Below the pieces are notes generated by a model. That model made no database searches, was not told the origin of the DNA, and saw only the letters and a program-made list of their open reading frames with translations. From the NCBI RefSeq assembly GCF_000186865.1, contig NW_008705574.1, positions 72,282 to 136,281 on the forward strand: a stretch of 64,000 nt of DNA, written 5' to 3'. Shown here piece by piece: positions 1 through 59,702 of the stretch (positions within the stretch are counted from its first letter, which is position 1; each line of letters opens with the position of its first letter). The DNA comes from Aureococcus anophagefferens (Eukaryota > Sar > Pelagophyceae > Pelagomonadales > Pelagomonadaceae). The translations under genes were made by a program, and so were the position numbers.

Positions 1-1320
1 ATGGCCGCGGCGCCCTTGGCGGGGACGTAGACGGAGATCTTCGCGCCGCCGTCCTCCTCGGCGAAGCCAAACTCGCGCACCTCCGTGATGGGCACCTCGC
101 GGCGCGCCGACGTCTCGAGCTTCACGGGCGCCGTGTCGACCTTCACGCTCTGGTCCGTCGCGCCGTGCGCGTAGTAGTAGGAATTCTCGCCGTGCTTGCA
201 CACGGACGCGCCGAGCGCGCCCGGGGGCTCGGCGCGCCCGGGGTCCTCGGGCGTCACGTCCTCGACGACGAAGCCGTCGGCCTCGTCGAGGCGCTGCGGC
301 GCCATGACGACCTTGGTCTTCTCCGCGCGGCCCTGCTCGCCGTGCGCGAAGTAGTACCTGGGCAGGAAAAGGGTGCGAAATTCTCAATTTCAAAGGCTCC
401 TTTCTCGGCCGATTTCCACTCGTTTCGGCTGATTTTTGGACGAGCGATCATCTCTCGGAGCGCTCTCGAAGCGTGGATGCTTTTCCTAGAACGCGCGCGC
501 GCGAAACACTCACATTGAAGCGACGTTGAATCACCCTTTTCCTGCCCTGAGTAGTACGAATTGCCGCCCTTGCGCGCGATGGAGTCGGCGATGGCGTTCT
601 TCGACGGCGCCTTGGTCGTGATGACGCCCCGGTCCTTCGTCGCCGCGCCGCGCTCGCCGCGCTCGCTCTGCTGGCGCAGGAGCTCCTGCTTCGCGGCCGT
701 CGCCTGCGGACGCGCCCGGTCGCGGCGCGAGCGCGGGGACGCGGAGCGCGCGCGCGCGCGCGAGCGTACATCCCCTCGGCTGTGGTTCTTCGTAATTTGA
801 GTAGTCTTCCGCATCGGCGGGCGGGTTTCAAGCCGCCGCCTCTCGTGGTCGTAGGACTGGGGCTCGTCACCGGGGCTTTCGGCGGCGTTCGCGGGACGCG
901 GCGCCGCGCGGAGATGGGCGCCCGCTCGTCGCGGCGGCTCGCCTCGCGCCGCTCGGCGACGAGCCGCAGGCGCTCGGCCTCGCGGCGCCGCGCGGCCGCG
1001 GCGGCCGGCGACTCGGCCGCGGCCGCGCGCGCCTCCGCGGCCGCGGCGTCCTGCGCGCGCCGGTGCGCGTCGACCTCGTCGCTCGACAGCGGCCGGAGCA
1101 CGCGGCTGCTCACGTAGCCGCCGACGGGCTTGACGATGCGCCGCCGCGACACGCCCGCGGACGTCTTGGCGACGGACGCGTCGGCGGCGACGACGACGGC
1201 GCCGTAGACGAGGTCGCCGACCTGGGCGCTGTCCAGCTCCACGTCGGCGCGCACGACGGCGCCACTCCGGCCGATGACGCGGTAGAGCGGCCGCGACGAC
1301 TGGAGCGCCGAGGCGACCAT
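1..1320 (-). CDS. CS-domain-like protein, 3' end outside window
   Basis: The gene reads leftward and leaves the window, so its C-terminus is missing. ATG at 1320 begins a compact beta-rich stretch (about residues 1-75, ending near RIVKPVGGYVSSRVLRPL), then an Ala/Arg-rich coiled region. A frame change near 830-890 joins it to a segment starting DEPQSYDHERRRLETRP; I read this as a short intron but cannot fix its ends. Then come two copies of an NSYY(F/Y)AHG motif about 45 residues apart, and at the edge EFGFAEEDGGAKISVYVPAKG, which resembles the first strands of a CS (p23/CacyBP-like) domain. The first NSYY motif is split by an introner: the intron runs from 557 down to 358, phase 2, and splicing gives NSYYFAHGEQG. 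CS proteins are usually HSP90 or SGT1/CacyBP-type adaptors. That role is inferred from the partial domain only. Confidence 0.5.
358..549 (-). mobile_element. Introner element copy A (192 bp)
   Basis: The ends are terminal inverted repeats (CTGGGCAGGAAAAGGGTG against CACCCTTTTCCTGCCCTG). It is flanked by an exact 8-bp duplication AGTAGTAC at 350-357 and 550-557. In the sense of the host gene (minus strand) the upstream duplication supplies the GT donor (GTACTACT) and the element ends in CCCAG, so the 200-nt intron 557-358 removes one duplication plus the element. Strand here means internal orientation, taking the side with GATTCAACG as the left. Confidence 0.93.
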
Positions 1321-1550
1321 CACCGCGGCCGCCGTCGACCTAGGCACAGCCACAGCGAGTGGCAAAATGGAGCGCTGCTGGCCTCAAGGACTTGTCGTTG
1401 AATTGGTCCCATGATGTTGAAGTGACCGCCCGCGCGCTGGGGCAGCGTTTGGACGCTCTGGACGCTCGTTAGAAGGCGCCGGTCGACGGACGACTCGCGC
1501 CGCGCGCCGCGCCGCCCGTCGGCGCACGTCGCCGCGCCGCCGCGTCGCGC

Positions 1551-3700
1551 ATGGGCGGCCCGGTCGAGAACCTCCTGCGCGCCGCGGGCTGCCCGCTCTA
1601 CGCCGTCCCAAAGGCCCTGGGCTTCGACGTCGAGGCGCAGCGGAGCGCGGCGCAGGTGGAGGCGGACAACGCGCGCGGGTGCGTGGCGCCGTGCTGGGAC
1701 GAGACGGACAACGGCATCCCCGACGTCTGCCTCGAGCGCAAGTGGTGCCCCTTCAACCCGGACAACCCCGTCACGAACGACAACTTCGTGTGCCTCGTCT
1801 TCGGCAACATCGGTTTCCCCTACTTCGACCGGCGGCGCAAGGTCTACATGGGCGTCGCCATGTGGTCGACGCTGCTCGCGATGTTCGTCACGGCCTTCGG
1901 CGCGCTGTCGCTGTCGACGGACCCGGACGTCGTGCGCACGTCCTACTGGGCGAAGCTCGAGACCTGGAACGCGACGTCTCGGGAGACGACGCACTACTAC
2001 CTGGGATTACGGTCCATCGTCACGGTCTACGACGGCGGCGACGAGACGACGGACCGGCTCGAGATCGACTACATGGTCGGGCGGATCCCCGGGAGCCGGA
2101 ACGTCGACCCCATGCGCGAGGAGCTCCTCGAGAGCTGCGCCGACAGCGCCGCGGGGAACCAGATCGGCGCCTTACTTTCCTGCGTGACGCTCATCTTCGC
2201 GCTCCTGGGGACGATCAACCGCATGAAGTTCTCGAGCGACGCGAACGTGCAGAAGGCGCTGGGCCTCGTCACGGACACGTGGGGCGCTTTAACGCTGAGC
2301 TACACGCTCTTCAACTTCCACGCGAACTGCTTCGACGACCTGCCGAACCGGTTCCTGCACCTGGACCTCGACTACGAGTGGGGGCCGGGCTGGATCTGCT
2401 ACCTCTTCTGCGCGTTGAGCGGGTGCATCCGCGCCGCGGCGCACTGGGTCACGCCGACGCCGGGCAACGGCGCGGGCGCGTGCACCTTCAGTCTACCGAT
2501 GGAGATTTTAAAGCTCCTGGACGCGGACGGCGACGGCGAGATCACCTGGGAGGACCAGAAGCTCATGTTCCGGAACCTGAAGAAGTTCATACAGCACGAG
2601 ACCGTCGAGGTCCGGAGCCGCGCGACGATCCTGCGGGCCGACATGCTCAAGGGCGGCGGCCGCTTCGTGCGCGCCGCGTCCGACGCGGCCGAGGACCTGG
2701 CGGACCGCGTCCGCCACTCGCTCACGGCCCACGACGAGAGCCCCCGCGCGCTCGGCGACGACGAGAAGCGCGACCTCGTCGCGGGCGCGCTCGCGGACTT
2801 TGGCGGCGCGGCGCCCGCGCCGCCGGCGCCGGCGACGGCGACGTCGCCCGCGTCGCCGGCGCCCGAGTCGCCCAAGGCGCCCGCGGCGCCCGCGGCGCCG
2901 AGGAGCCCGCCGCGCGACGCGGGGCCCGCGCCCGCGGGCGAGCGCGACGGCGCGCCCGAGGACCCCCTCGCGCGGCGCGTGTCCCTCTCCCTCGCGAAGC
3001 AGCGCCACAACGCGCGCCGGTCTTCCATCGCGCGGTCCGTGCCAGGGCAGGACAAGAGAGCGACATTCCCAACTTCAAAGGCTCCTTTCTCGGCCGTTTC
3101 CCACTCGTTTCGGCTGATTTTTGGACGAGCGATCATCTCTCGGAACGGTCTCGAAGCGTGGATGCTTTTCCCGGAACGCGCGCGCGCGGGACACTCACGT
3201 TGAAGCGACGTTGAATCACCCTTGTCCTGCCCAGGTCCGTGCTCCGCGAGTCGACGGCGCACGACCGGCACGAGCGCCTCGCGAAGCGGTCCGCGGAGCG
3301 CAGCGCCGCGCGCCGCGGGTCCGTGCGCACGGCCAACGTGCCGACCTACCTCTACGGCCTCTCCGACGACGCCAGGTGCTCGCCGCGCCTCCTCGAGGAG
3401 GACGAGGCGCGGCGCCACCACCGGCCCAAGGCCATGTGGAACAAGGTGCGGCTCAACATGAAGCACCTCAAGCAGGCCCAGGTGCGCCCGGACGACGGCG
3501 CCGGGGCCGCGGACGCGGCGCCGGAGGCGGACCCCGACCCGGTGACGGCGCAGCCCGCGCCGAGCCCGCTCGCGCCGCCGCGGCGACTCGACGGGGGCGA
3601 CGACCCGGGGCCGCTCCGCCAGGGCCGCCTGCCGCCCCTCGCGGACCGGCGCGACCTGCCGCCCCTGCGACCGAGGGACGACGAAATGAAGTCGCCGTAA
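1551..3700 (+). CDS. Multi-span membrane protein with one EF-hand
   Basis: Two exons, 1551-3034 and 3235-3700, separated by an introner intron (phase 2). Four hydrophobic spans are visible at roughly residues 100-122, 207-228, 239-262 and 283-303. A Cys-rich N-terminal domain and a predicted loop carrying an N-glycosylation sequon (NAT) lie outside them. After the last span an EF-hand loop DADGDGEITWED (about 325-336) has the expected Asp/Glu ligands, so calcium sensing on the tail side is likely. The remainder is an Ala/Pro-rich, Arg-rich disordered tail. Splicing at the target-site duplication joins ...SSIAR to SVLRESTAHDRHERL in frame, which supports the exon structure. I do not recognise a family. 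It is transcribed divergently from the CS-domain gene across about 230 bp. Confidence 0.75.
3043..3234 (-). mobile_element. Introner element copy B (192 bp)
   Basis: Terminal inverted repeats with core GGGCAGGACAAG at both ends. Exact 8-bp duplication GTCCGTGC at 3035-3042 and 3235-3242. The intron is 3035-3234 (200 nt): GT comes from the left duplication and AG from the element's final CCCAG. Internal sequence is in the opposite orientation relative to transcription from copies A, C and F. Confidence 0.95.
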
Positions 3701-3794
3701 AGCGCGGACTCGTGGGGAAGCCAGCTCACGGCAACCTTGCTTCAAGCGATCGCTTCAAGCATGTTGACGATCCGCCCGTGTGAAGCACTGAGCT

Positions 3795-5758
3795 ATGGCA
3801 GGCGCCGCTGTCTTGCTGGCGCTCGTCGCCACCCGCGCGGCGGCGTTCGCGCCGCCGCGGCCAACGCGCGCGCCCCTCGTCGCGCGGTCCTACAAGCGGC
3901 CCGACGCGCCGCCGAGCCCCGACGGGTTGTCGTCGCTGCGGTCCGCGGCGGCGAGCGGCCGCTGGCGCGAGGCGCTGGCGCTCATCGCCGCGGCGGAGGA
4001 GGCCATCGGCGACCGCGCGGCCAAGGGCGAGGGCCAGGCGTTCCCGCTGCCCATCGAGGCCTACAACCTCGCCATCACGGCCTGCGGCGCCGCGGGCGAG
4101 TGGCGCGAGGCGCTCGGCGTGCTCCGGCGGCTCACCGTCGGCGTCGACTTCGACGGCGACAAGGGGTCGGTCCTCGGGCGGCGGCCGCGGCCCGACCACG
4201 TGACCTTCAACGCCGCGGGCGCCGCCGCGGCGAAGAGCGGCAGATGGCGCGACGCGGAGATGGTGTTGGACCAGAGCAGGCGCTACAAGCGGAGCCACAT
4301 CATCCTCTACACGTCGGTCATCGGCGCCTGCGGGCGCGCGCGGGAGAAGGGCCGGGCCCTGGGCCACCTGGCGCGGCTCCGCGAGGAGCGGGGCCGCGCG
4401 GACGTCTTCGCGTTCACCGCGGCCGTCGACGCGTGCGCGCGCGCGGGCGACTTCGCCAACGCGACGGCGCTGCGGCGCGCGATGGAGGCCGAGGACCGCG
4501 TGGCGCCGAACCTGCGGACCTTCCGCGCGCTCGTGTCCGCCGCGGGCAACGCCGGCGAGTGGGCCGCGGCGGAGGAACTGTTGGAAGAGGTCCGCGCCGC
4601 GTTCGCGGCGCGCGACGGCGACGACAGGGGCTGGCGGCTCCGGGACTACGCGGCGTGCCACGAGGCGGCGCTCTTCGCCTGCCAGGACCGGGGCGACTAC
4701 GCCCGGGCCGCCGCCGTGCTCGGCCGCGTCGAGGCGGACGTCGACGCGCGCGCCGTCGGCGGCCGCGACGGCGACGCGCTCGACTTCACGCTGCGCGGCC
4801 ACGTCGCCGCGGTCGGCGCGTGCGCCGCGTTCCGCGGGCCGGCGGAGGGCGAGGACTGGGCGGACCGGCGCCGCGTCGCCTTCGAGCTGCTGCGGCGCCT
4901 CGAGGACCGCGTGTCCGCGCCGGCGCGGCGGTCCATGCTCTGGCGGCGCGCGCGCGAGCGCCGCGCGGCGCACAACGCGGTCTTGGCGGTGTGCGGGCGG
5001 GGCGGTTTTGTGGGTGATGCTTGGAGCTCCTCGAGAACGCGACGACGAAAGGGTTGAAGCCCGACGCGGCGTCGTTCAACGCGTGCCTGGCCGCGTGCCG
5101 CCGGTCCGAGCCGCCGAAGGCCGAGGCGTCGCTCCGCATCTGGCGCCAGCTCATCGACGACGGCACGGCGGCGCGGCCCGACGGCGTCTCCGCGGCGGAG
5201 ACCGTGGCCTGCCTCGAGCGCGGCAACCGCACGGCCGACGCGGACGAGGTCTTCGGCGACTGTTTGCGGCTGGGCGTGCTCCTCACGAAGCCCGCGGGCC
5301 CGCGGTCCGCGGCGCCGCCGTCGGGCGTCAAGTCGTCGTCGTTCCTCGACGAGGACGGCGAGTACGACGTCAGCGGCATGACCGTGCCCCTCGCGCGCTG
5401 CGCCGTGCGGCGCGCCGTCTACGAGGCCGCGGCCGACCTCGACCCGAAGGCGACGGCGAAGGCGTCCGTCGTCTTCATCACGGGCGTCGGCGCGCGGCGC
5501 CAATTCGACCCGAACCACGTGCCGCTCCGGACCCACGTGCTCCAGCTCCTGCGGCACGGCTTCGACCCGCCGCTCGTCGCCTTCGTGCCCGACGACGCGC
5601 CGGGCACGGTCAAGGTCGAGACGCGGTCCCTCCTGGCCTGGGCCGCGGCGCGCGACGAGGACGCCGCGGACGCCGCGGAGAAGCGGCCCGCGCGCGGCGG
5701 CGGCGCGAAGCGCCGGGGGAAGCGCGGCCGCAAGAAGGGCCGGCCGAGTAGCAAGTAA
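3795..5758 (+). CDS. Plastid-type PPR-SMR protein (one frame change)
   Basis: ATG at 3795 begins a hydrophobic signal followed by RAAAFAPPRPTRAP, an ASAFAP-like junction typical of plastid import through the secondary endosymbiont membranes. Several degenerate pentatricopeptide repeats follow, for example AYNLAITACGAAGEWREAL and AFTAAVDACARAGDFANA. The C-terminus has a small-MutS-related (SMR) core: VVFITGVGARRQ, LRTHVLQLL and VAFVPDDAPGTVKV, then a Lys/Arg tail. PPR-SMR proteins bind organellar RNA or plastid nucleoids and act in RNA processing or gene expression. At about 5020 the frame must slip by one base: VCGRGGFVGDA must continue as LELLENATTKGLKPD. No credible intron fits there, so a one-base deletion (assembly or real) is the simplest reading. 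Without it the protein would end at 5057. Confidence 0.85.
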
Positions 5759-5788
5759 AAACAGTGTCGTAACGCCCGCAAGTAACAG

Positions 5789-7027: not shown

Positions 7028-7143
7028 CCCATGCTCTCTCTTATTTCGGGCTGCAACTCGCGTTCAAGAATCGCCTCGCCGCCAAAGAGCTCCGGTCGTC
7101 GTCGTCGCGCACCTTGCGTGACGCCCCGCCGGTCGCGCGGACC

Positions 7144-7620: not shown

Positions 7621-7648
7621 CTTCGCTATCATCTACGGCCGCGACCAA

Positions 7649-8264: not shown

Positions 8265-9784
8265 ATGTGCGCCGCGATGCGACGCAGCTCGCGCGTGCTC
8301 CTCGTCCTTGCAGCGACGACGTCGGCGCTCGCGCCGTTGCCGTCCCACGCGCGCCGCGGTCCGCCCCTGCGCGCCGCGGCACCGCTGAAACCGAGCGGCG
8401 GCGCCGCGGCGCCGGCCGAGGCGCCGCGGCGGCTGCTCGTCATGCTGTCGCTGGGCTACGGCGGCAGCATGTTCGCCTTCCGGCCGACGCTCATGATCGT
8501 GCTGCCCGCGCTCCTCAAGAGCCTCCACCTGTCGGAGGCCGACGGCGGCGCGTTGCTGAGCACGTGCCAGCTGAGCTACATGGTCGCGAAGCCTCTGTCC
8601 CAGGCCGCGAGCGACGGCGTCGACGCGCGGCTCTTATTGGTCGCGAGCGAGGTCGCGACGGGCGCCTGCTTCTGCCTCCTGGCGCTGGCGACGACGAGGC
8701 TCCACCTGCGGGTCTTGTTCGCGCTGATCATGGCGTTCCAGGCGCCGCACGTGCCCGCGGCCGCGCGGATCATCACGACGCGCTACGCGGCGGCGAAGCG
8801 CGGCAAGCCCTTCTCGACGATCAACGCCGCGGCGAACCTCGCGTCCTGCGCCGTGCCCCTCGTCGTCACGCGCGCCGTCGCGCGGTTCGGCTTCCGCGCG
8901 CTGTTTCTGGCCGTCGGCGGCGTCTGCGCGCTGCTGCCCCTGGTCCAGTACGCGAGCATCGCCGAGGGCGACGTCGCCGCGCCGGCGGCGGCGGCGGCGC
9001 CGGCGCCGGGCCTCGGCGGCGTGCTGCGGTCGCGCGTCGTCTGGCTGCTGGGGCTGTGCTACGCGCTGCTCTACTTCGTGCGCATGGGCGTCGAGGGCTG
9101 GGTCGGGACCTTCGCGCCGGGCTGCGTCGGGCGGTTCCTCTTCTTCTGGCAGGTGGGCGGCGTCGTCGGGTCGACGGCCGCGGGGCCGTCGTCGGACCGG
9201 CGCGGCGGCGACCCGGCGCCGCTCGGCGTCGCCTTCGCCGCGGCGCTCCTCGCCTTCGCTTTGGCGTTTCGCGTCGTCGGCGACGAAACCCACCCGCTCA
9301 TCGTCGCCGCCGTCGCGTCCCTCGGCGGCGCCGCGGCCTACGGCGCGCGCGTGCTCAACGGGGCAGGAAACGAGTGATTCGAGTTCGCTTCAACATGAGT
9401 GTTCCGCGCGCGCGCGTTCCGGCAAAAGCATCCACGCGTCGAGAGCGCTCCCGGAGATGATCGCTCGTCCAAAAATTAGCCGAAACGAGCGGAAAATGAT
9501 CGAGATAGGAGCCTCCAAAGTTGGGAATGTCGCACTCTTTTCCCGCCCAGGTGCTCAACGTGCTCACGACGCGCGCGACGGTCGACGCGCGGTCCTGCGG
9601 CAAGGCCGACGCCGTGACGAACGCGCTCGCGGAGTGCGGCGGCGCCGTGGCCGGGCTGCCCCTCATCGCCCTCGTCCAGCGCGCGGGCTGGGCCGCGTAC
9701 CCCCGGACGCTCGCCGCCGCCGCCGCGGCGCTCGTCGCGGCGCACGTCGCCCTCGCCGCCGAGTGCCGCCGGGGCGCGCCCTAA
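8265..9784 (+). CDS. Major facilitator superfamily transporter
   Basis: Exons 8265-9350 and 9551-9784, joined across introner copy C in phase 0. Splicing gives GARVLNVLTTRATVDARSCG. ATG at 8265 or 8277 precedes a signal-like stretch ending TSALAPLPSHARRGPP, which resembles an ASAFAP transit motif, so a plastid-envelope location is possible. About ten to twelve hydrophobic helices follow. The first cytosolic loop SYMVAKPLSQAASDGVDARL matches the MFS loop between helices 2 and 3 in the organophosphate:phosphate antiporter style (glycerol-3-phosphate/hexose-phosphate carriers). Substrate is not determinable. Without splicing the protein would end five codons into the element and lose its last 78 codons. 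The stop codon is 2 nt from the stop of the convergent desaturase gene. Confidence 0.82.
9359..9550 (+). mobile_element. Introner element copy C (192 bp)
   Basis: Exact 8-bp duplication GTGCTCAA at 9351-9358 and 9551-9558. The intron is 9351-9550, 200 nt. The donor-side end reads CGGGGCAGGAAACGAGTG and the acceptor-side end CACTCTTTTCCCGCCCAG, so this is the most diverged of the six: its terminal repeats no longer match each other exactly and its second base is G, not A. Confidence 0.93.
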
Positions 9785-9786
9785 GT

Positions 9787-16002: not shown

Positions 16003-19000
16003 ATGCAGTCGCCCCCGACGCCGGCGTTCGCGCCGTGGACCGACGCCACGGAGCGCGAGCTCCAAGCGCTCATCCGGCGGAAGCAAAAGGCACTGCTACA
16101 GCCGGCGCCCGGCGCGCCGAACCCGTTCCGCCTCTCCATCCACGCTCACGCCCTCGACGCCGCATGGCGCGCCCAGCTCGCGCCTCGCGACCGCATCATG
16201 CCGAACGCCGCCGACTGCGACTTCACCAAGCTGACCAAGGCCGTCGAGGCGCAGGCGCGCTCGTTCTACGACGCCTACGGCGAGGCGCAGCGGACGTTCG
16301 AGCTTCCCATCCCGTGCCACCCCATCGAGCTCATCGGCCTCAGCGCCGCTACGGCGTCAACGGCCGCCGCGATCTTCGAGGAGGCGACGCTGCGCGTGAG
16401 CGGCGACCCGACGATGGCCGTGCTGCGCGCGCACGTGCGGGCTATCGTCTTCGATGAGTCGGGCCTGGGGAAGATGATGCTGGAGGCTCGCCTCGGCCTC
16501 TCGAACATCTCCGAGGAGGTCTACGCCGCCGCGCGGCAGCTGTACACCGTCGCCTTCGTCCTCGACGACATCACCATGGCGCGCCCCGAGGGCATCGTCC
16601 TCATCCCGCTCATCTTCGCGGCCATGTGGGAGGACCTGGAGTTCAACGGCGCGTGGAAGCGCTACTTCGGCCCCAAGCGCGTCGCGTTGGTCGCGGCCGC
16701 GGTCGCGTTCCCCACGAAGGACGCCGCCATGCGCATGCAGGCGGGCCTCCGCCACGTCGACGCCCCCGGGGGCGCCGGGCTCCAGACGCGGCTCGACGAG
16801 GTCCTCGCCGACGACCCGGCCGCGGACGGCGACGGCGGCGACGGCGCGACCGTCATGGAGGAGGAGGCGACGCGCGTCGACGGCTCCGGCGGCGCCATCG
16901 ACGAGGAGCGGTCCCGCCAGGTGGCCGTCGACGCGCAGGCGTCGCTCGCGGGCTTCGAGGAGCGGCCCGCGGCGTCGGAGGGCGCGAAGGCGTCCGGCGG
17001 CGACGGCGGCGACGGCGCGACCGTCATGGAGGAGGAGGCGACGCGCGTCGACGGCTCCGGCGGCGCCATCGACGAGGAGCGGTCCCGCCAGGTGGCCGTC
17101 GACGCGCAGGCGTCGCTCGCGGGCTTCGAGGAGCGGCCCGCGGCGTCGGAGGGCGCGAAGGCGTCCGGCGGCGACGGCGTCACGGATTTACTGGCGACCT
17201 TCGCGGCCCACGAGCTCGGCGAGCCGCCCGCGCCCCAGGCCGTCGACGCCGCCGCCGTCGACAAGGCCGAGGCCGCCTTGGCGGTCGCGCTGGCGAATTC
17301 GAATTCGCCGCCGCCCCCAACGGTCGCGCAGCTCGCGCAGAGCTCGAACGCGGAGGCCCTGCGTGCTGTGTTGGCAAAGCTCGCGACGCGCACGGCGCGC
17401 CGGCGGCGCTCCAACCCCGTCGTGCTCCGCGAGGATGCCTACGTCGTCCTCGATGCCCTTTACGACGACGACGGGGCGATGCGGCGCAAGGCCGAGCCGC
17501 TCGAGGCCGAGGCTCGGTCCAAGAGCGACGCGGCGAAGGCGGCGTTGCGCGAGGGCTGGCGCATGGGCGTGGCCGAGGACGAGATCGATCGGCTCGACCG
17601 CGTCGTCGAGGCGTGCGAGCGCGCGGAGTCCGAGATCCGCGCGCGGCACGTTTACGACCGCGCCGCGGCCGCGTCGAAGCTTGGGAATGCGCTCGAGGTG
17701 CGGGTCTCTGCGGGAGTCATCGACCCGAGCCGAGGTGCTCAGATTTTCGTCGCGTATGGGACTCTGTCCGAGCTTGGTGCGCGATTCGCGGATGATGCCA
17801 ATTTGGATCGCACCATCACTTTCACCTTTCGCGCTCCGCATGCGGACTCGGACGCCTTCTTTCCCTCCGGGCTTGCTATCGGCGCCATCGGCGTCGCTGC
17901 CTGTCCCATCCAGAGCCTGCACCGGGGCGAGACGCAGGACGACTGGCGGGGTCACAAGTTCTGCCTCGTGAAGATCGCGAAGATGACGCGGAATCGAGCC
18001 AAATGGACTCAGGACGGCTTGGAGGTCGTGAAATCATCTGCTGGAGCGAACTTTAGCCTGGTAGTCGTGGAGCCGGTTGCTCCAGGTGGCACGCCGACGG
18101 CGGCGCTACCCGCGGCGCCGGCCGAGGACCCGGTGACCGCGGCGCGCCGGACGCTCGCAGTGCTCGGCGCGGAGCTCGAGAACGCCACGACGCGCGTCCT
18201 GCGGGTCCACGGCGTGAGTAAGCGCGAGGCGATCGTGGCGCGCGTGAAGGGCCGCATCGACGCCGTCGACATCTGCGACGACGTGGAGCTGCGCGACATC
18301 CGGAGCGACCTCGTCCGCCGCGCGGAGGCGCTGCCCCTCTCGACCGAGGCCGTCGCAGAGGCCCGCGCGCGGCTGCCTCCGAAGTCGCCGCCCAAAGCGC
18401 GGCCGACCCGCGGGTCGATCCGCCGGGCGGCGGCCGCCGCCGACGAGCGCCAGCCCAGAATCGCGGCCGCGACCGGCGCGGAATCGGCGGCCGCTGCGCG
18501 CCCCGCGTCGCCGCTCCGTGCGCCGGAGAAGCGCGCCCCGCCGCGGTCGCCCGGCGGCGCCGTCGGCCACGCGGCGAAGCGGCCCAACCAGATGGTCGAA
18601 CGCTTTGACGCCGACCTCGCCGCGTTGAACGCGCACACGGCCGCGCCGCCGCCGCAGCCGCGGCAGGAGCCCACGGCCGTCGAGGCCGCCGCGCCGCAGG
18701 AGCCCGTGGGCCGCGACGAGGTCGCGGTGATGGTGCACCCGGGCGACGAGCGCTTGGAACTTGCGTCCGTCCTGCAATACGACCGGAGCTTCGGAGGAGG
18801 GTACGAGGTGCAGCTCGAGCGCGACAAGGAGATCGTCGAGCTCCCGGCGAAGCGCGTGCGCCGCCTGGACCCGCACGAGGATGACGACTTCGCGAAGGGC
18901 GAGCCCGTCCTCGCGCTCTTCCCCGAGACGACGTCGTTCCGCCGCGCCGTCGTGGCCCAGAAGCCGAAGCGGGCGCGCGGCGGCGCGCCGCTCGAAATCG

Positions 19001-20758: not shown

Positions 20759-20808
20759 NNNNNNNNNNNNNNNNNNNNNNNNNNNNNNNNNNNNNNNNNN
20801 NNNNNNNN
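20759..20808. other. Assembly gap, 50 N
   Basis: Fifty consecutive N, a conventional placeholder length, so the true gap size is unknown. A further single N is at 20822. Confidence 0.99.
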
Positions 20809-40600: not shown

Positions 40601-41584
40601 CGACGTCGCCGCGCGGCGCCGGCGCGGCTGCCGCGTCGAACGGGTCGTCCGCGGCCGCGTCGGCGGCGGCCGCGAAGTCGAGGAAGCGGTGGCGCAGGCG
40701 CCGCCAGCTCGCGCCGTACTGGCCCAGGGGGATGTCCGACGGCCGCAGCGGGTCGCCGCCGCCGAGCACGAGGCCCGCGGCGTCGATGCGTCGCCCGTTC
40801 TCGCCGAGGAGCTCCGCGTAGCAGCCTGGGCAGCACAAGGGTGATTCAACGTCGCTTCAACGTGAGTGTTCCGCGCGCGCGCGTTCCGGAAAAAGCATCC
40901 ATGCTTCGGGACCGTTCCGAGAGATGATCGCTCGTCCAAAAATCAGCCGAAACGAGTAAAAAATGGCCGAGATATGAGCCTTTGAAGTTGGGAATTTCGC
41001 TCTCTTGTGCTGCCCTGGTAACAACACAACTGCATGACGTGGTTCGGCGCCGCGCGGCGGCTCAGCTTCGCGTCCCAGATGGCGTAGGACCCGTCGTCTA
41101 AACGCACGAGGAAGTCGGGCACGCCGAGGAACGTCGCGTCGGCGACGGGCGCCTGGTAGATGACGTCGGCGCGCGATTCCATGGCCTCGAGCGTCGCGGC
41201 CGTCGCGCCCGCCGGGTCGCCGCGCACGCGCCGCGCGGCGCCGCTCAGGTCGACGACGTCGCGCTCGCGGCGCAGCGCCGCGAGGACGTCGCGCTCCCAG
41301 GCGTCGCCGCGCCGCGCGAGCAGGGACGCGAACGCGTCCGGCGGATCCCGCAGCGCGTCGAGCGCCGCGCGGTCGTCGCCGGTCGCCGACGCGTAGCGCC
41401 GGTCCATCCACGCGGCGAAGGGCGACCTCGCGAACTGCAGCACGTCCGTCGCCGACCAGAGGCGCGTCGATTCGGGGGCGCCGCTGGCGGCGCGCAGGCG
41501 AGTGCCGGCGGTGAGGCGCAGGGAACAGCGCCGCAGCGCGCCCGCGAGCCCCGCGAGCATGGCCAGCAGGGCCTTCCGGCGCAT
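37665..41584 (-). CDS. RecB-like nuclease + RNase H-like + SF1 helicase (TM0106 type)
   Basis: Exons 41584-41026 and 40825-37665 (introner copy D, phase 1; the join reads QLCCYAELLGENG). 1239 residues. The first domain is a PD-(D/E)xK nuclease: GVPDFLVRLDDG and YAIWDAKLSR, catalytic D157, D171 and K173. A helix-hairpin-helix-like AGISRKQAAALRKAGLDTCS is near 288-307. A DnaQ/YprB-like 3'-5' exonuclease fold follows: LDCYFDLEGDPFLG (D380, E382), YHYGAYELSAL and AYNKDDCDST. A superfamily 1 helicase closes the protein: Walker A GPPGTGKTY (from 810), Walker B LFVDEAGQ (about 928), FQGREAPVVVASL and LNVALSRAQ. This matches the bacterial TM0106-type RecB-like nuclease-helicase architecture, so a bacterial origin is likely. 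The N-terminal basic segment may be an organelle presequence. Confidence 0.88.
40826..41017 (+). mobile_element. Introner element copy D (192 bp)
   Basis: Terminal repeats share the core GGGCAGCACAAG at both ends. The flanking duplications differ at two positions: in host sense, GTTGTTAC upstream (41025-41018) and GCTGCTAC downstream (40825-40818). Both changes are C/T. The intron is 41025-40826, 200 nt, with GT donor in the changed copy. Confidence 0.92.
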
Positions 41585-51825: not shown

Positions 51826-51835
51826 TGTGTTAAAT

Positions 51836-54800
51836 TTAGGCGCGACCGCGGAGGCGGCGGTCCTCGTCGTCGCATTTCCCGCACGTCACTTTGCACGCGT
51901 CTTTAGCGCGTGTGCCGAACTCGTCCTTCTTTTTGCAGTTCTTGCTCTTCTTGGACACGAAGGCTTCGCACGTCTTTTTGCTCTTCTTGTAGTACCAGGA
52001 CGCGGAATCTTCGCATTCAGACGGGCACTCGCCGCACGCCACGGGGCACGCGTCGCGACCTCTCACGTCGTCGACGCCCTTCTTCTTGCACTTGTCCGTG
52101 CGTTCCCTCAGCCAGTCGCAGTCGTACTTGCTCTTCTTCCGGTACCAGCTGACGCTGTCGCTGCAGGACGCCTCTTCGGCGCCGAGCGTCGGCGCGGACG
52201 ACGCGAACGGAAGCGTCGGGCTCGGGCTCGGCCGCGGCGTCGTTCGCGGCTTCGGGCGCGCCGTCGGGCTCGGGCTCGGGCTCGTGCTCGGGCTCGGCGT
52301 GGGCCGCGGCGTCGGGCTCGGCGTCGGCCGCGGCGTCGGGCTCGGCGTCGGCCGCGGCGTCGGCTGCGGCGTCGGCCGCGGCGTGGGCCGCGGCGTCGCG
52401 CGCGACGCGCAGCCGGAGCCCGTCGCGCTCGACAGGCCGTAGCGGCTGGAGATCTTGTCGCAGTCCGTCGGATCCGCGGTGTAGCCGGAGCACTGGTAGC
52501 CGCCGTACATGCTCGCGCCGACGCCATTAAAGTAGAGGTAGACCCACTGATTGTGGAACTGGGACGACGACGACCAGCAGAGCACGCCCGTCCCGGATGC
52601 CTTGGACCACACGTGGTACCGGTCGTCGCACTGCCAGTACTCCGCCGCGTCCGCGTAGGCCTCGCCGGCGGCGACGTATTCGTAGTCCCCGTTCCGCGGC
52701 TGTAGCCGCTGAACGTGAGGTACAGCGTCGACGGGAGGCAGTCGGTCGGCGCGGGTACGGGCGCGACGGTCGTCGTCGCCGGGCTCGGGCGCGGCGTCGG
52801 GCTCGGGTACGGGCGCGCGGTCGGCCGCGAGGTCGGTTCCGGGGCCGGCCGCGACGTCGGGCGGGGCGTCGGATCGGGCCGCGGCGTCGGACGCGGGGTC
52901 GAGTCCGTCGTCGGGCGCGGCGTCGGGTCCGGCCGCGACGTCGGGCGCGGCGTCGGGTCCCGAGGCGTCGGGCGCGGCGTCGGGTCGGGTTGCGGCGTCG
53001 GGCGCGGCGTCGGGCGCGGCGTCGGGTCGGGTTGCGGCGTCGGTTTCACGTTCGGCCGCGCCGTCGGGGAGCTCACGCAGCCCGAAACCGTCGCGCTCGA
53101 AAGCCCGAAGCTGCTCGGGATCAAATCGCAGTCCGTCGGGTCCGCCGTATACGAGGCGCACTGGTAGCCGCCCTGCATGCTCGCGCCGTAGCCGTTATAA
53201 TAGAGGTAGATGTACTGGTCCGGAAACTGGGACGACGCGGACCAGCAGAGCACGCCCGCGCCGGAGCCCTTGGACCACACGTGGTAGCTGTCGTCGCAGG
53301 AGCTGTAGGCTGCCGCGTCCGCGTAGTCGTCGCCGGCCGCGACGTACGCGTACTCGCCGTCCCACTGCGGGTAGCCCCCGAAGGTCAAATGCACGGACAA
53401 CGGCGTGCAGGGTTCGCTCCTCGTCGGCGCCGGGCTCGTCGTGGGCGCCATGGTGTCCGACGAGGTCACGGTCACGGAGAGGGCGCCGCCCGCGTCGGCG
53501 GCGACGGCGACGACGACGACGTACTCGACGCCCGGTCCGTCCGCGAGGTCGAGGGCGAAGGACTCGCCCGGGAGGATGGCCGCGTCGGCCCAGGACGAAG
53601 TCTCGGGGTGCGCGTCGACGGTGACCGTGTTGCTCACCCAGCCGGTGCCGCCGTAGTCGTCGACGACGGACGCCCAGTGCACGAGGACCGCGGCGCCGCC
53701 CGTGTCCGCGACGCGGTGCTCGAGAAAAAAGTACGTGTCGTAGGCCCGCGCCCCGATCGCGACGACGAGCGTCGCGCCGTCGTCCGGCGCGACGCCCGCG
53801 TCGATGCGGTCGAGCGTGTAGGGCCCGCAGGGGTTGCACTGGGGCGCGTCGGCGGCGAAGTCGTAGGGCGCCACCCACGCGACCTCGCCGTCGTCGATCC
53901 AGTCGAAGACCATCTTCGTCGACGCGAGGAACTGGGCCGAGGAGCCGAGGTCGGCCTCGACGTCGCCCCAGCCCATGGTCGAGTACATGGACCCGTACTC
54001 GTCCCAACTCTCCGGATCGTCCTGGTACGCGACGGCGCCGCGCGCTCCGCCGTGCATGACGCTCGCGTGGTTCGCGCCGAAGTTGTGGCCGAGCTCGTGC
54101 GCGAGGGACGCGTCGTAGTTCCAGCCGCCGACGTTCTGCGCCGTGCCCGGGTGGCTGACCCAGCCGATGCCGCCCCAGTACAAATTCCAGCAGTTGGGGA
54201 TCATGATCGCGACAAAGTCCCAGGAGCTCGGCACGGCGCCGTAGGTCCCGAGCGCGTTGAGGACCTCGTAGGCGAGCGTGTCGTAGGCGCCGGTCCCGCC
54301 CTGCCAGTAGTTGATGGAGCCGATCTCGCCGCACTGGGCCCGCGACACCGTGCTCAGCGTGACCATCTCGGAGACGGTCGCCTTGAATTCGACGCGGCCG
54401 CCGGAGCTCGCGGCCGCGTAGGCGCCGAACGTCGCGGCGACCTGCTCGAGGTACGCGTGGGCGTCGCCGCCGTGGTCGCCCGCGACGAGGCTGAGGCCGC
54501 CCCAGCCGGCGTCGCAGCCCTCGTCGTAGTAACAGATCGGGACCAGGAGCAGCGACTTCGTGCCCGTGACGTAGTCCGTGACCGCGTCCTCCGCGACGGC
54601 GACCCAGGGCAGGCGCTTATTCGCCTGGAGCGGCGTGTGCAGGCGGCGCGCCGTGAACGAGTCCGAGACCCGCGCGGCCTCGTCGAGGCTCGCGAGCTGA
54701 ACCGGCGTTCCGTCGCCGCCGGTGCAGAGCGCGGCGCGGTCGCAGCGGATCGCCGCGTCGGCGAGGTAGAAGGTGCCGTTCAGCTCGAAGCCCACGACGG

Positions 54801-55251
54801 GCACCCGCGCCGCGCTGCCGGAGAACGCGCGCGCGCCGACGGGCTCGACCTTGGAGAACGGTTCGCCCGCGGCGAGCTGGACGTGCGAGATCCGCTCGCC
54901 GCGCGTGCCGTTCCGCTCGCGCTGCACCTTGGTGACGACGTTCGCGAAGCCCGCGTGGGGCCGGTCCTCGAGCACGCAGCCCTCGGGCAGCGACGCGCGG
55001 AACTCGGCGCCGAGCGAGAGCGAGAGGTCGACGGCGGCCTCGAGGTCGCTCGACGACACGAGGTCGCGCAGGAGCCTCGCGCGCGCGGCGCAGGCGTGGC
55101 GGGCGTCCAGCGCCTTCCGGCCCACGTGCCGCACCACCGCGTCGTGGACGGCGTCGTGCGCGGCCGTCCGCAGCCGGGACGGCGCCACGAGCCCGTGGGG
55201 CAGCCCACTCGCGACGACCAAGGTCGCGCAGATCTGCAAGGCGCGGGACAT
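51836..55251 (-). CDS. Gametolysin-like (M11) metalloprotease with repeats and ShK-type tail, one frame change
   Basis: Signal peptide at 55251 ([18 protein letters not shown]). A propeptide-like region precedes the metzincin core: zinc motif [11 protein letters not shown] at 385-395 and Met-turn YSTMGW about 40 residues later. This fits peptidase family M11, which digests cell walls in green algae. Two about 105-residue repeats follow ([35 protein letters not shown]), separated by long P-T-P-R-P linkers. The protein ends with two ShK-type six-Cys modules ([13 protein letters not shown] ... ACPVACGEC, and [13 protein letters not shown] ... ACKVTCGKC). Near 52695-52705 the frame must slip one base, inside the start of the second repeat (LTFSGYS to [13 protein letters not shown]). 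Without it the protein would lose the second repeat and the ShK modules. Confidence 0.82.
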
Positions 55252-55521
55252 TGTCTTGCTTGTTGTGGTCGTCGCGAAACCGATCGCGGCGTTGCTTTTG
55301 TCCGCGTCGGCTGCGCAGTTGCTTTGTGTTCAGGAGAGGGTGCCATAATTCCCGGCAGCGCAGGAAATGAACATGTCGATGATGCAGGGCTGCTTGAAGG
55401 TGCAGCCTGGCGAGCCGCCAGTGCGCCGGCGGCACCCCTGCGTACCGGGTCCGCACATCCATGACAAAGCCCACCGCGACGACGACCGAGGCTACTTAAA
55501 GGGCGGTGCTCGGCGGGGCGC
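55252..55521. other. Intergenic, nothing supported
   Basis: Promoter region of the metalloprotease gene and 3' flank of the YHS-like gene, both on the minus strand. No motif identified. Confidence 0.3.
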
Positions 55522-56147
55522 TCACCAGGCGAAGGCCGAGGCCGGGTCCGTCCAGAAGTGGTTGATGCAGCCCCAGCAGCAGAAGTAGATGGGCTGGCCG
55601 AACTTGTGGAGGACCTACCAAGCACGTCGGTAACGATGTTTCATCGTTTCCCCGCCCGAAATCTCTCGAAACTCGTCACAGCCGCAGGACGCTGACGAGG
55701 ACGCGCGGCGTCTGCATGTCCACGAGGATGTGCTCGCCGGAGTACGGGCACTGCACCGTCGTGTTGCGCAGATCGGGGAGGCCGCGTGCGCCGTCGGGCA
55801 TGGGCAGCAGCCCCTGCTCCGGCGTGCTGTCCGTGGGCGCGAGCCAGTACGACCGCGGGTCGCGGCCGTAGGTGCTGGCGTCGTCCTTGGAGGCGAAGAA
55901 GAGCGTCTGGCCGTTGAAGAGGCCCAGCGGGTACATGTCGCTCGTCGACATGTTCTTGCCTACCACATGCGTCGGTAACGATCTTTCATCGTTTTCCCGG
56001 TCAAAATCTCTCGAAAATCGTCACGGATGCAGGACGCAGGTTCTTGCCGGTGACGGGGCAGATCGCGACGTCGCGCGGCCCCGGCGGCGGCTGCGCCGCG
56101 GCGCCCAGGCACGTTAGAGCAAGGATCAGAATTGATAGCTTCGCCAT
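55522..56147 (-). CDS. Secreted YHS-like protein with two homologous short introns
   Basis: Three exons: 56147-56048, 55959-55691 and 55614-55522. The lengths sum to 462, exactly 154 codons. Signal peptide AKLSILILALTCLGAAA. Two YHS-like units follow. The first is ICPVTGKNMSTSDMYPLGLF with NGQTLFFASKDDASTYGRDP. The second is VQCPYSGEHILVDMQTPRVL, then FGQPIYFCCWGCINHFWTDP. The C-P-x-(T/S)-G and F-C-C-W-G-C motifs suggest a metal-binding Cys cluster. The end (SAFAW) is complete. Function unknown; an extracellular metal-binding role is possible. Intron 1 begins with GC if the target-site duplication supplies the donor. An internal GT four bases into the element would also keep the frame and add four residues (LRKN). 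Confidence 0.8.
55615..55690 (-). mobile_element. Short introner-like element, family 2, copy 2 (76-nt intron)
   Basis: In host sense it begins GTCCTGCGGCTGTGACGAG and ends ACCGACGTGCTTGGTAG. It is homologous along most of its length to intron 1 of the same gene, with shared TTTCGAGAGATTT and a short stem AACGATG / CATCGTT. The target-site duplication is degenerate: CGCAGGAC against TGGAGGAC, 6 of 8. Confidence 0.75.
55960..56047 (-). mobile_element. Short introner-like element, family 2, copy 1 (80 bp + 8-bp duplication)
   Basis: The exact 8-bp duplication GTTCTTGC (plus strand) lies at 55952-55959 and 56040-56047. The 80-bp insert reads, in host sense, CTGCGTCCTGCATCCGTGAC to GACGCATGTGGTAG. 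The upstream duplication gives a GC donor (GCAAGA, a good GC-AG consensus) and the element ends in AG. Confidence 0.8.
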
Positions 56148-56319
56148 TGCGCGTGCAATCCTGTCGATTGCGCGAGGCTTCGTAAGGCTGCCCGGTCGGC
56201 CTGGCCCAGTGTTGAACGTCAACTCCCGGCAACAAGCCGTGCTCAACTCTAGATCAGCTCTGCTGCTGCACGAGAGCTGCCGCCGCCACCGCGCGCCGCT
56301 TGCGCGCCGCACAGCCACG

Positions 56320-56958
56320 ATGGTCAAACCGCCGACGGAGGTCGTCGCCGCGAAGCGCTCGTTGCGCAAGGCCATGAAGGCGTTGCTCTCGGCGCTCGAC
56401 GCGACGACGCTCGCCGCGGAGTCGGCCTGCGTCGCGCGCCAGGTCGTCGCGCGCGACGACTGGGCGTCGGCGTCGACGGTCGCGGCCTTCTGCTCCATGC
56501 CCTCCGGCGAGCTCGCGACGCGGCCCCTCCTCGAGGCCGCCTTCGCCGCGAAGAAGCGCGTCTTCCTGCCGCGCGTCGACGACGTGAAGTCGCGGAAGAT
56601 GACGATGCTCGAGGCCTACTCGCTCGACGACGTCGACGGCTTCGCGCGGTCGACCTGGGGCATCCCCGAGCCGCCGGCGGGCGAGGGCCGCGCCGACGCG
56701 CTGGACGCGGGCGTCGACTTCGTCCTGGTGCCGGGCGTCGCGTTCGACGGTGGCCGCGGGCGCCTGGGCCACGGCGCGGGCTTCTACGACACGTGGTTCG
56801 CGGCGCTCGCGGCGGGCGGCGCCGCGCCCCCGCGCGTCGGCGTCGCCCTCGCGGACCAGCTGCTGCCGAATTCGAAAATCCCGGACTGCCCGGCCGCGGT
56901 GCCGCGCGAGGCCCACGACGAGGTGCTGGACGCCGTCGTGGTGGCGAAAAGAGCGTAA
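56320..56958 (+). CDS. MTHFS: 5-formyltetrahydrofolate cyclo-ligase
   Basis: 212 residues, one exon. It converts 5-formyl-THF to 5,10-methenyl-THF using ATP in folate one-carbon metabolism. Family landmarks: N-terminal KRSLRKAMKALLSAL (phosphate-binding Lys/Arg), VAAFCSMPSGELATRPLLEA, KKRVFLPRVDDVKSRKMTM, and the signature DFVLVPGVAFDGGRGRLGHG then AGFYD, which covers the ATP/Mg loop. Length fits the family. No clear targeting peptide, so probably cytosolic. Convergent with PP2C, 5 nt between stop codons. Confidence 0.95.
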   Translation: MVKPPTEVVAAKRSLRKAMKALLSALDATTLAAESACVARQVVARDDWASASTVAAFCSMPSGELATRPLLEAAFAAKKRVFLPRVDDVKSRKMTMLEAYSLDDVDGFARSTWGIPEPPAGEGRADALDAGVDFVLVPGVAFDGGRGRLGHGAGFYDTWFAALAAGGAAPPRVGVALADQLLPNSKIPDCPAAVPREAHDEVLDAVVVAKRA

Positions 56959-56963
56959 TCTCT

Positions 56964-58345
56964 TTAGTCGAAGGCGCGCCGCTGCGGGGCCGGGGCCTGC
57001 TTCGGCCGCTTCGGCCCGCCGACGAAGCGGACGGCGACGGCGGTGACGTTGTCGCAGCCCGTGCCGTCGCCCTCCGCGGTGTCGGCGACGCAGGCGGCGG
57101 CGAGGTCGCGCGCGGCGTCGACGACGTCGCCGTCGCCGAGGACGCTCGCCACCGTCGCGTCGGGCAGGCAGCCCGTGACGCCGTCGCAGACGAGCGCGAG
57201 GCCGACGTCTTTGTTGGAGAGCGGCGCGACGACGACGTCGGGCTCGCAGGAGATGCGCTGCCGCTCCGGCGCCAGGCCCGGCTCCATCTTGTAGCGGTGG
57301 TCGCCGAAGGCGCGCGACAGGTTCAGGTTGCCGTCGACGCGGCCCTCGGGCGTGACGACGCCGCCGGCGGCCTCGACGCGCGACCGCTCGCGGTCGTCCT
57401 CCGGCTTGTGGTCCTCGCTCAGCGCCGCCGGCGCGGCGCCGCCGGCCCGGAGGAGGATGGCGCGGCTGTCGCCCGCGTTGGCGACGTAGACGACGCCCGC
57501 GGCGCGGTCGACGAGCGCGACGACCTGGGCAGCACAAGGGTGATTCGACGTCGCTTCAACGTGAGTGTTCCGCGCGCGCGCGTTCCGGAAAAAGCATCCA
57601 CGCTGCGAGACCGTTCCGAGAGATGATCGCTCGTCCAAAAATCAGCCGAAACGAGTGGAAAACGGCCGAGATATGAGCCTTTGAAGTTGGGAATTTCGCT
57701 CTCTTGTGCTGCCCTGGCGACGACGGCCGTGCATCCCGACGCGTAGCCCGGCCGCTCCTCGACGTCCTCGGCCTCGGGCTCGCGGGCCCGGAAGCCGGCG
57801 GCGGCCGCGGCGTCGAGGTGCCGCTCGTTGTAGGCGGCCTGCTCCGCGCGGTGGCTCGCGCGGCGCGCCGCGACCTCGTCGGATCCCGGCGACGGCCAGC
57901 GCAGCGACGCGTCGAGCGCGAAGAACGCGGCCCGGAGCGCCGCGCCGTAGTCGCCCTCGGCGAAGCCCGGCGCGCGCTTCAGGTAGGCGCCGACGTGGGC
58001 CGCGGCGTAGCGCGCGACCTCGGCGCCGCCGTGGCCGTCGAAGACCGCGAAGAGACCGAGCGACGCGCCGAAGTCCGGCTCGGCGACGTGCGCGTCCTCC
58101 TGGCCCGTGCGCCAGCCCTGCACGGCGCAGCAGCCGGCGTCGAGGCCCATGAGCTTCGGCGTCGGCTTCGAGCTGTGGCGCGACGCGTCGAGGTCGACGA
58201 TGGGCGCGGAGAGGTACGGCGACCAGGCCATCTGGCGCGCGTAGGCCAGGAACGCCGCCTTCAGCCTCGCCTCTTTCATCGCGTCGCGCCGGCGGCGACA
58301 CGCGACGAAGCGCAGGCGCCTCGACCGCTTCTGGCGGCGGCCCAT
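56964..58345 (-). CDS. PP2C-type protein phosphatase
   Basis: Exons 58345-57725 and 57524-56964 (introner copy E, phase 0). The join reads ASGCTAVVALVDRAAGVVYV. 393 residues from the ATG at 58345; in-frame alternatives are at 58375 and 58279. PP2C motifs in order: GWRTGQEDAHVAEPDF, GLFAVFDGHGGAEVARYAA, YVANAGDSRAILLR, LSEDHKPEDDRERSRVEAAG, GNLNLSRAFGDHRYK, LALVCDGVTGCLPDA and GTGCDNVTAVAVRF. The metal-binding Asp residues (DGH, CDG, CDN) are present. The common SDG(L/V)WD is CDGVTG here, a small departure. Ser/Thr phosphatase, monomeric, Mg/Mn-dependent. Confidence 0.94.
57525..57716 (+). mobile_element. Introner element copy E (192 bp)
   Basis: Exact 8-bp duplication GCGACGAC at 57517-57524 and 57717-57724 (GTCGTCGC in host sense). 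The intron is 57724-57525, 200 nt. Very similar to copy D throughout, including the GGGCAGCACAAG core at both ends, so these two share a recent source. Confidence 0.95.
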
Positions 58346-58380
58346 TTTTGTATTGCAGTCGCCTTCAGCGAGCACTGCGC

Positions 58381-58482
58381 AGCGAGCGGTGCTCGAGGCG
58401 GCCGCGCTTCACTGCGCGGCAGCGAGCGGTGCTCGAGGCGATCGATGCGGGCACTGCGCAGCAGCGAACGGTGCTCGAGGTG
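58381..58482. repeat. Three degenerate 20-bp direct repeats
   Basis: The unit AGCGAGCGGTGCTCGAGGCG is at 58381-58400 and 58421-58440, and a variant at 58463-58482, spaced 40-42 bp. They lie upstream of the PP2C start codon and downstream of the next gene on the same strand, so they could be promoter elements or a minisatellite. Confidence 0.8.
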
Positions 58483-58605
58483 GATGCAAGCGGTCGCGCA
58501 CACCGACGTCTCGCGGTCGCAGCTCCGATCTCCAGCGAGTCGACTAGTCTCAAGCTCGGAGTGCACGTGAAGGGCGAGTTGAAGCCGCTTTTTAAAGTGC
58601 CGCCC

Positions 58606-59702
58606 CTAGGAGCTCGGCGGCTTCGACGTCGTCGCGTTGGACGGCGCGCGGGGCAGGTGCTCGTCGCCGAGGCCGTTCTTGAGGTAGTTGTCCCAGGCCG
58701 CCTGCGCCTGGGGGTCCTTGGGCTTGGGCTCGGGCTCGGGCGCCTTGGGCTTCGGCGGCGCGTAGGCGTAGCCGGCCCGCACGGGCGTGCCCTTGGCGAC
58801 GAGGGTCACGGTCTCCTTGCCGCCGCGGATGCGGCAGACCCAGTAGCCGTCGTTCGCGCCCGTGGCCTCGCGGACGACGCGGATGCGACCCGGCGACGCC
58901 TCGTCGACGAGACCCTCGAAGATCGTGCCCTTGTGGCAGACGGGCGGGTTCGGCCCGAGCAACGTCACGTCCCAGGGGCCGGCCTGGTAGGGCGTGCCCC
59001 GGTCCGCGATGACGCCGTAGGTGTAGAGCTTCGTCTTTGGCTTGTTCACGTGCTCCGCGACCTGGGCAGGAAAAGAGTGCGAAATTCTCAACTTCAAAGA
59101 CTCCGCTCTCGGCCGTTTTCCACTCGTTTCGGCTATTTTTTGGACGAGCGATCATCTCTCGGAGCGCTCTCGAAGCGCGGGTGCTTCTTTTACTGCGCGC
59201 GCGCGCGGAAAACTCGCGTTGAAGCGACGTTGAATCACTCTTTTCCTGCCCTGTCCGCGACGGTCGGCTGGTCCTGCTGCAGCCGCCGCGCGACGGACCG
59301 GTACTTGCCGCTCGCGTTCCGCGGGTCCGGGGGGAGGTCGTTCGCCGGCGCGACGGGCTCCGGCTCGGGCTCGGGCTCCGGCTCCGGCTCCGGCGCCTTC
59401 TTGAACGCGCCCTGGACGACCCTCAAACCGCCCGCGCCCGCGGCCGCGACGGCGTCGACGACGAGGTCGTCGGCGTCGAAGGTCTTCCCCTGCGCCCTGG
59501 GCTCCATGAGTCCGAGCTCGTCGGTCCCCAGCGCGCCGGCGCCGAACTTGGCGTCGTAGGACTTGCCGAAGGCGTCCAAAATCTTCTTCACCTTGGTCTT
59601 GCGCGCCGGCTCGAGCCACTTCGGCGGCACCTTCATCGCGATCTTGTAGTGGCGCGTCTCGGCGACGTCCGCCGGCGCGTACTCGACGACGAGCTTCGAC
59701 AT
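58606..59702 (-). CDS. Two-domain protein with UBL-like N-terminus, EP-repeat linkers
   Basis: Exons 59702-59262 and 59061-58606 (introner copy F, phase 0). The join reads RLQQDQPTVAEHVNKPKTKL. 298 residues. The N-terminus (about 1-95; YKIAMKVPPKWLEPARKTKV, KKILDAFGKSYDAKFG, TFDADDLVVDAVAAAGAGGL) resembles that of the CCCH protein at 48594 and is probably a beta-grasp fold. Then come an EP repeat (APEPEPEPEPEPEP), a beta-rich domain (LYTYGVIADRGTPYQAGPWD, IFEGLVDEASPGRIRVV, RIRGGKETVTLVAKG) and a second EP/KP linker. No known family. The C-terminal domain may bind nucleic acid or protein. Confidence 0.75.
59062..59253 (-). mobile_element. Introner element copy F (192 bp)
   Basis: Exact 8-bp duplication TCCGCGAC at 59054-59061 and 59254-59261 (GTCGCGGA in host sense). 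The intron is 59261-59062, 200 nt. Terminal repeats carry the GGGCAGGAAAAGAGTG core at both ends. Confidence 0.95.

Follow-up and report, generated by a model that had tools for sequence, protein, structure and literature searches.

The 64,000-nucleotide stretch of Aureococcus anophagefferens DNA considered here (contig NW_008705574.1, positions 72,282 to 136,281, part of the contig handled as C14; its full length is called the window) carries six near-identical copies of a 192-bp element, with starts at 358, 3043, 9359, 40826, 57525 and 59062. With a probability of about 0.92, these copies are introners, i.e., non-autonomous DNA transposons made to be spliced out. The introner elements of A. 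anophagefferens described by Huff, Zilberman and Roy in 2016 reportedly make an 8-bp duplication, carry one splice site and co-opt the other, and the category is already known in Aureococcus; what is added here are GC donors, two polarities and relatives that have no AG acceptor. New introns are rarely caught forming, and in this family the steps appear to be readable: a transposon without AG, an acceptor gained through one base, and a donor taken over from host sequence.

The proposed mechanism starts from a short non-autonomous DNA transposon with imperfect 18-bp inverted repeats, which would duplicate 8 bp of its target on insertion and depend on a transposase supplied in trans, most probably one of hAT-like type. 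In the sense direction, this would give the order GY-N6 (the host duplication, Y being C or T), CAGGGCAG...CTGCCCAG (the element), and then the same 8 host bases. As donor, the spliceosome would use the GY with which the upstream duplication begins; as acceptor, it would use the AG that closes the element. The message would then presumably be restored exactly. The acceptor may have come from a single change of the penultimate base, CTGCCCTG to CTGCCCAG, in a transposon with symmetric CAG...CTG ends; such a change at either end would yield two subfamilies of opposite splicing polarity.

The six copies in the window

The copies and their predicted introns are listed below, polarity F denoting an interior that runs along the sense of the gene and polarity R one that is opposed to it.

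Introner 1, 358..557, minus strand: predicted 200-nt intron; element 358-549; duplications 350-357 and 550-557, AGTAGTAC/AGTAGTAC, exact; phase 2; polarity R.
Introner 2, 3035..3234, plus strand: predicted 200-nt intron; element 3043-3234; duplications 3035-3042 and 3235-3242, GTCCGTGC/GTCCGTGC, exact; phase 2; polarity F.
Introner 3, 9351..9550, plus strand: predicted 200-nt intron; element 9359-9550; duplications 9351-9358 and 9551-9558, GTGCTCAA/GTGCTCAA, exact; phase 0; polarity R.
Introner 4, 40826..41025, minus strand: predicted 200-nt intron; element 40826-41017; duplications 40818-40825 and 41018-41025, GTAGCAGC/GTAACAAC, 6/8; phase 1; polarity F.
Introner 5, 57525..57724, minus strand: predicted 200-nt intron; element 57525-57716; duplications 57517-57524 and 57717-57724, GCGACGAC/GCGACGAC; phase 0; polarity F.
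Introner 6, 59062..59261, minus strand: predicted 200-nt intron; element 59062-59253; duplications 59054-59061 and 59254-59261, TCCGCGAC/TCCGCGAC; phase 0; polarity R.

The starts and flanks, with five exact duplications and one of 6/8, are those given by an initial annotation made from the window alone. All six copies sit within coding frames, and excision of the element plus one duplication leaves an open coding frame across the junction in every case, in phases 2, 2, 0, 1, 0 and 0, again as had been proposed. Between the two ends of a copy, 15-17 of the 18 outermost bases pair. In 6/6 copies the sense-strand donor is GT and the AG that serves as acceptor is formed by the end of the element itself, which bears out the earlier claim that the element carries it; in introner 1, for example, the sense donor is GTACTACT and the acceptor ..CTGCCCAG. 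In the imperfectly flanked copy at 40826, the intronic 8-mer in the sense direction is GTTGTTAC and the exonic one GCTGCTAC, GT versus GC being a difference between them.

A Pfam scan of host proteins covered five of the six window genes (those at 358, 9359, 40826, 57525 and 59062, the first from the junction onward). The host of 9359 is an MFS transporter (MFS_1, E 3e-19 for the joined protein), that of 40826 has an RNase_H_2 domain (PF13482, E 3e-19), and that of 57525 is a PP2C protein phosphatase (E 1e-54). The scanned part of the host of 358 had no Pfam match, and the sole match for the host of 59062 lay under the cut-off of the scan. The host of 3043 has LLDADGDGEITWEDQ upstream of the junction and is EF-hand-like by eye.

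Copies across the genome

A genome-wide search for further copies had been set beforehand as a test on which the introner reading could fail. A 17-base core, with at most one mismatch allowed, gave 2,051 matches in the 49.05-Mb, 86-contig genome and a single match when reversed as a control; an exact 23-base core had no match in viral contigs. The detailed sample comprised 136 different copies, including those of the window, and came mostly from one contig (C1): core matches were listed for 100 places, 99 of them on C1, and the surroundings were taken for 98 of these 99 (C1:2187646 was left out). It also included locus L039 and 28 of 40 matches of a search favouring F-like copies akin to the one at 3043, and two copies in L064, which are cut by the ends of their stretch, were not delimited. 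F copies outnumbered R copies by 94 to 35 among 129, which is not a genome-wide ratio, as most of the sample comes from one contig and part of it is biased towards copies resembling that at 3043, an F copy.

The sampled copies lie in different host genes, have a median identity of 95-96% to their subfamily consensus and are 192 bp long in 99 of 136 cases. Their duplications are exact over 8/8 bases in 102 of the 134 copies evaluated, against 0.7% with shuffled partners, which excludes a chance origin of the duplications. The logic of a DNA-transposon introner that had been proposed for the window, with inverted repeats, an 8-bp duplication, a co-opted donor and a carried acceptor, is thus found in the window and in the wider sample alike.

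A search for the terminal repeat without the introner interior led to two places, L039 and L040, of which the former is an ordinary copy with a small insertion. At about 1499-2001 of L040 lies a longer rearranged derivative (~500 nt) that has the introner left end, a diverged right end and, by eye, a 6/8 duplication; its interior contains two 116-nt repeats. At L065, L044, L046 and L078, at least two introners lie within ~250-1,100 bases of one another.

Strand and frame rules

The relation of the copies to coding sequence was followed with a codon model that had been trained, without annotation, on sequence with the elements removed, and that converged on the standard code with a strong third-position GC. 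For each empty site, 180 nt on each side were scored in six frames, which gave scores for 134 copies. Confidently coding sequence was found on both sides of 107 of these, on the same strand in 107/107, and the frame was kept in 103 of the 107 after removal of the element and one duplication, compared to 3 of 169 scorable places (400 drawn) for control deletions of 200 nt from ordinary sequence. A single-ended AG was present in 99 of the 103 in-frame copies and lay on the coding strand in 99/99 (76 F and 23 R); among the remaining in-frame copies, one had AG at both ends and three had AG one base inward. At a joint score above 10, no copy among 119 ran contrary to the strand rule.

GC and GT donors

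The initial annotation had the GT donor come from host sequence, which holds for the six window copies; in the family as a whole, the host dinucleotide taken is somewhat more often GC. Among 129 sampled sense donors, i.e., the first two bases of the duplication, there were 75 GC and 49 GT (GY in 124/129). Genome-wide, the sense 5′ end CAGGGCAGSAMAAG occurred 1,202 times (control, 1), and 8 nt upstream of these CAG ends stood GC in 619 cases and GT in 533, i.e., GY in 1,152 of 1,202. In the exons beside the copies, GY makes up 20% of the dinucleotides, with GC as 79% of GY, so that GY appears to be strongly required at this place and both GC and GT to be accepted.

The non-GY ends that were inspected comprised the two ends of a 479-bp element described below, L070, L106, L122 (one extra base) and L123 (a shifted variant). 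The shifted variants L005, L031 and L104 end in CTGCCAGG rather than CTGCCCAG, which places the AG one base inward, and in 3/3 of them the GY starts exactly 1 nt upstream of the duplication; the same shifted pattern of AG and GY was seen by eye in L123, which lies beyond the sample. With both sites displaced by one base, the spliced message would again be unchanged.

GT is over-represented among donors (34/87, against 21% expected). No claim is made that this excess reflects the strength of splicing, since it would equally arise if insertion favoured targets with T at position 2, a preference for which the listed duplications give a mixed hint. The intron phases follow from the position of GY within codons, with no phase bias beyond GY placement (39/24/24 against 35/22/30, p 0.37). 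No donor signal beyond GY was found at p < 0.04 in 107 copies, and no GTRAGT-like pattern; a search for U1 RNA gave nothing, its controls being likewise silent. In the GC class, 100 listed duplications were off background at positions 3, 7 and 8 (p 0.0076, 0.0012 and 0.0049), and in the GT class, again with 100 listed, no position was; the GC-class deviations may reflect splicing or target choice.

Proteins across the junctions

In the PP2C gene (57525, GT donor), the joined sequence SGCTA|VVAL aligned to the structure 2i0o with no gap at the junction, and a public protein 98% identical to the joined PP2C (P0001) runs through it. The NCBI A. anophagefferens PP2C (P0002) has mostly the same residues and departs at the junction and near the C-terminal end. 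A further public protein, P0004, instead translates the terminal portion of introner 5 and continues into exon 2, which indicates that an unspliced or genomic version of this site is present in the database. Four junctions with GC donors, in genes for a kinesin, a DnaJ, a kinase and HisRS, were chosen for recognisable motifs. The kinesin (LRDSL|GGN), DnaJ (KAYLQK|ALEQHPD) and kinase (LGALH|GAGVVHLDVKP) junctions were gap-free against solved structures, and at the HisRS junction the public proteins P0121, P0122, P0124, P0128 and P0131 are continuous. P0124 and P0128 bear transcriptome labels but come from other algae, and P0001 and P0121 are of transcript or DNA origin; related proteins run through the junctions, and the DNA of their genes may itself have introns at these places.

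Were the copies plain gene-breaking insertions that are never spliced, the unspliced or genomic reading of introner 5 represented by P0004 would be accounted for, but neither the strand rule (99/99), nor the GY rule, nor the frame rule (103/107), nor the conserved junctions would be expected, and we regard this explanation as extremely improbable.

The NCBI A. anophagefferens HisRS models P0123, P0126 and P0132 drop residues to the left of the junction and resume exactly after it, as would be expected of a gene finder that refuses a GC donor, if those assemblies carry the element. These three and P0002 appear to be wrong at introner junctions, three of the four at a GC donor, which points to a practical cost of the family for public PP2C and HisRS gene models. 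Omission of residues beside a GC junction is also what a predictor using another donor would produce, and all six window copies have GT, so that one might suppose that donors are GT only and that apparent GC donors really use a nearby GT. Against this stand the 619 of 1,202 ends whose duplication opens with GC, the frame and conserved residues kept with the GC donor, and a count based on expressed sequence tags of 39.6% GC-AG introns in A. anophagefferens (PMC3033335); a restriction to GT is accordingly very unlikely.

Two polarities

When copies are oriented by their interior, AG lies at the right end in F copies and at the left end in R copies, and one copy, L007, has it at both ends. The F and R consensus sequences differ at 8 of 192 positions, including the second base of each end. 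The family is predicted to be spliced in two opposite polarities, set by which end bears the AG. On a tree of 107 copies built from 152 interior columns, in which most branches were poorly separated, the polarity label changed 8 times (mean of 26 when shuffled), with at least two changes forced by well-supported branches. Repeated switching of polarity is likely; a single origin of the R polarity was weakly rejected (p-AU 0.0485).

Relatives without AG and a possible origin of the acceptor

Two facing non-GY ends led to a 479-bp element (G000:C1:618576-619054), and a search with it found one match only, a 502-bp relative (G000:C32:77547-78048) flanked by the duplications CGCGCGAC/CGCGCGAC (8/8). 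Both have CAG...CTG ends, so that each repeat has A as its second base and neither end offers an AG acceptor; they share their outer parts and terminal repeats and differ in their middles, and each has one weakly coding flank (9.9 and 14.5) and one negative flank. A terminal repeat of 21-23 bp is common to both relatives and to the introner copies L127-L129, whose identity to the F consensus is 94%, 79% and 83%. The two elements are possible relatives of the autonomous element.

An RNA-based spread of the family, in which spliced introns would reverse-splice into new transcripts and be copied back into DNA with no transposase involved, would explain why the sampled copies are almost confined to the vicinity of coding sequence and to the splicing orientation. 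Reverse splicing, however, requires neither exact 8-bp duplications, nor inverted repeats, nor F and R orientations, and the family includes a CAG...CTG relative that has an 8-bp duplication but no AG end; the sample already implies that young insertions bear the 8-bp duplication, which would speak against reverse splicing, and we give this route only a minute chance, in favour of transposition as DNA.

The second terminal pair, compared in 84 copies of 192 bp, was A-A in 70, G-A in 10, C-A in 3 and T-A in 1, while most other repeat positions pair (positions 15 and 17 are exceptions). As the second base is A at either end of the relatives, the common A-A mismatch can be taken as the trace of a single change. 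The simplest reading of these sequences is that the ancestral repeat began with CAGGGCAG at both ends and that one change of the penultimate base made CTGCCCAG. Selection against pairing of the acceptor AG within an RNA stem might also have produced a mismatch at a position where A-A prevails while its neighbours mostly pair, and folding of 40 copies predicted an unpaired probability of the AG of 0.60 with A and 0.04 with T. Yet the A at both ends of the larger relatives lets the mismatch follow from one change without selection, and T, found in 1 of 23 non-A letters, is not clearly below the mutation spectrum (p 0.22). Sequestration of the AG by the repeat stem is thus unsupported by the mutation spectrum, and the AG-less relatives explain the mismatch more simply; we consider such selection unlikely, although less so than the alternatives above.

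Taken as a whole, the history could be that a CAG...CTG transposon making 8-bp duplications became an intron maker by one penultimate change, which took place more than once and struck the right end in one lineage but the left end in another; that splicing became possible in both orientations, with any exonic GY serving as donor, so that the genome filled with GC-AG introns, which would explain an enigma noted in 2011; and that AG-less relatives survive. The odds of this full account being correct are about even.

Observations that weigh against the interpretation

Several observations count against the introner reading or parts of it. Splicing itself is predicted from frames, conserved motifs and proteins of uncertain origin, genomic or transcript, and the alignment of HisRS to its PDB structure has a gap beside the junction. 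Two R copies, on the plus strand and below a joint score of 10, contradict the strand rule. Of the four copies that fail the frame rule, one (L032) agrees in neither strand nor frame, whereas the two of L077 and that of L106 appear to have ends misplaced by the script. There is no GY 8 nt upstream of 50 of the 1,202 CAG ends, and the donor dinucleotide of L070 is GA. No duplication is visible around the 479-bp relative and, as only two relatives were found, the single-base origin of the acceptor and its direction rest on few sequences. Genome searches for a transposase with hAT PF05699 and zf-BED PF02892 came back empty, the same searches being silent in all 14 control genomes, and a search with KDZ PF18758 also gave nothing, its controls likewise being silent.

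Comparison with known systems

Miniature transposons of the hAT superfamily make 8-bp duplications, have ends starting with CAGGG and are not introns as a class; their target preference is nTnnnnAn. The 8-bp duplication and the CAGGG start are shared by the introners described here, and A at position 7, the hAT-type target base, was present in 23 of 100 listed GC-class duplications (11.7 expected, p 0.0015) and in 7 of 100 of the GT class.

Published Aureococcus introners have a characteristic length of ~210 bp (PMC9481584) and direct and inverted repeats with canonical splicing motifs (PMC7789003). The present family resembles them in species, as judged by protein identity, in its length of ~200 bp, and in its direct and terminal inverted repeats; the comparison is by description. 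A difference is that canonical motifs are given there (PMC7789003), whereas GC exceeds GT among the donors here. Co-opted donors have been described in introners of other species (PMC9860276). Those of Symbiodinium microadriaticum have the same arrangement of inverted repeats, a carried 3′ splice site and a 5′ site from the duplication, but a duplication of 4 bp rather than 8 bp (PMC9860276).

GC-AG introns have been counted at 39.6% in A. anophagefferens and 22.2% in Micromonas pusilla, and their origin was called an enigma (PMC3033335). With GC in the majority among introner donors, the introners probably account for part of the excess in A. anophagefferens and are a possible source of this long-noted oddity. 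M. pusilla, of an unrelated lineage, is like Aureococcus both an introner host (PMC9860276) and rich in GC-AG introns (22.2%, PMC3033335). The link between GC-AG introns and introners, the polarity subfamilies and the AG-less relatives were not met with in the excerpts of the literature surveyed (including PMC12768974), and Huff 2016 and its supplement may report them.

Other features of the window

An Rfam scan of the window at gathering scores gave no match. The only N letters of the window are at 20759-20808 and 20822. A tandem duplication of 171 nt, with copies 98% identical, lies at 16818-17159, and GC-rich repeats of 12 nt occupy 52178-53263, where a 300-nt block is repeated at 74% identity.

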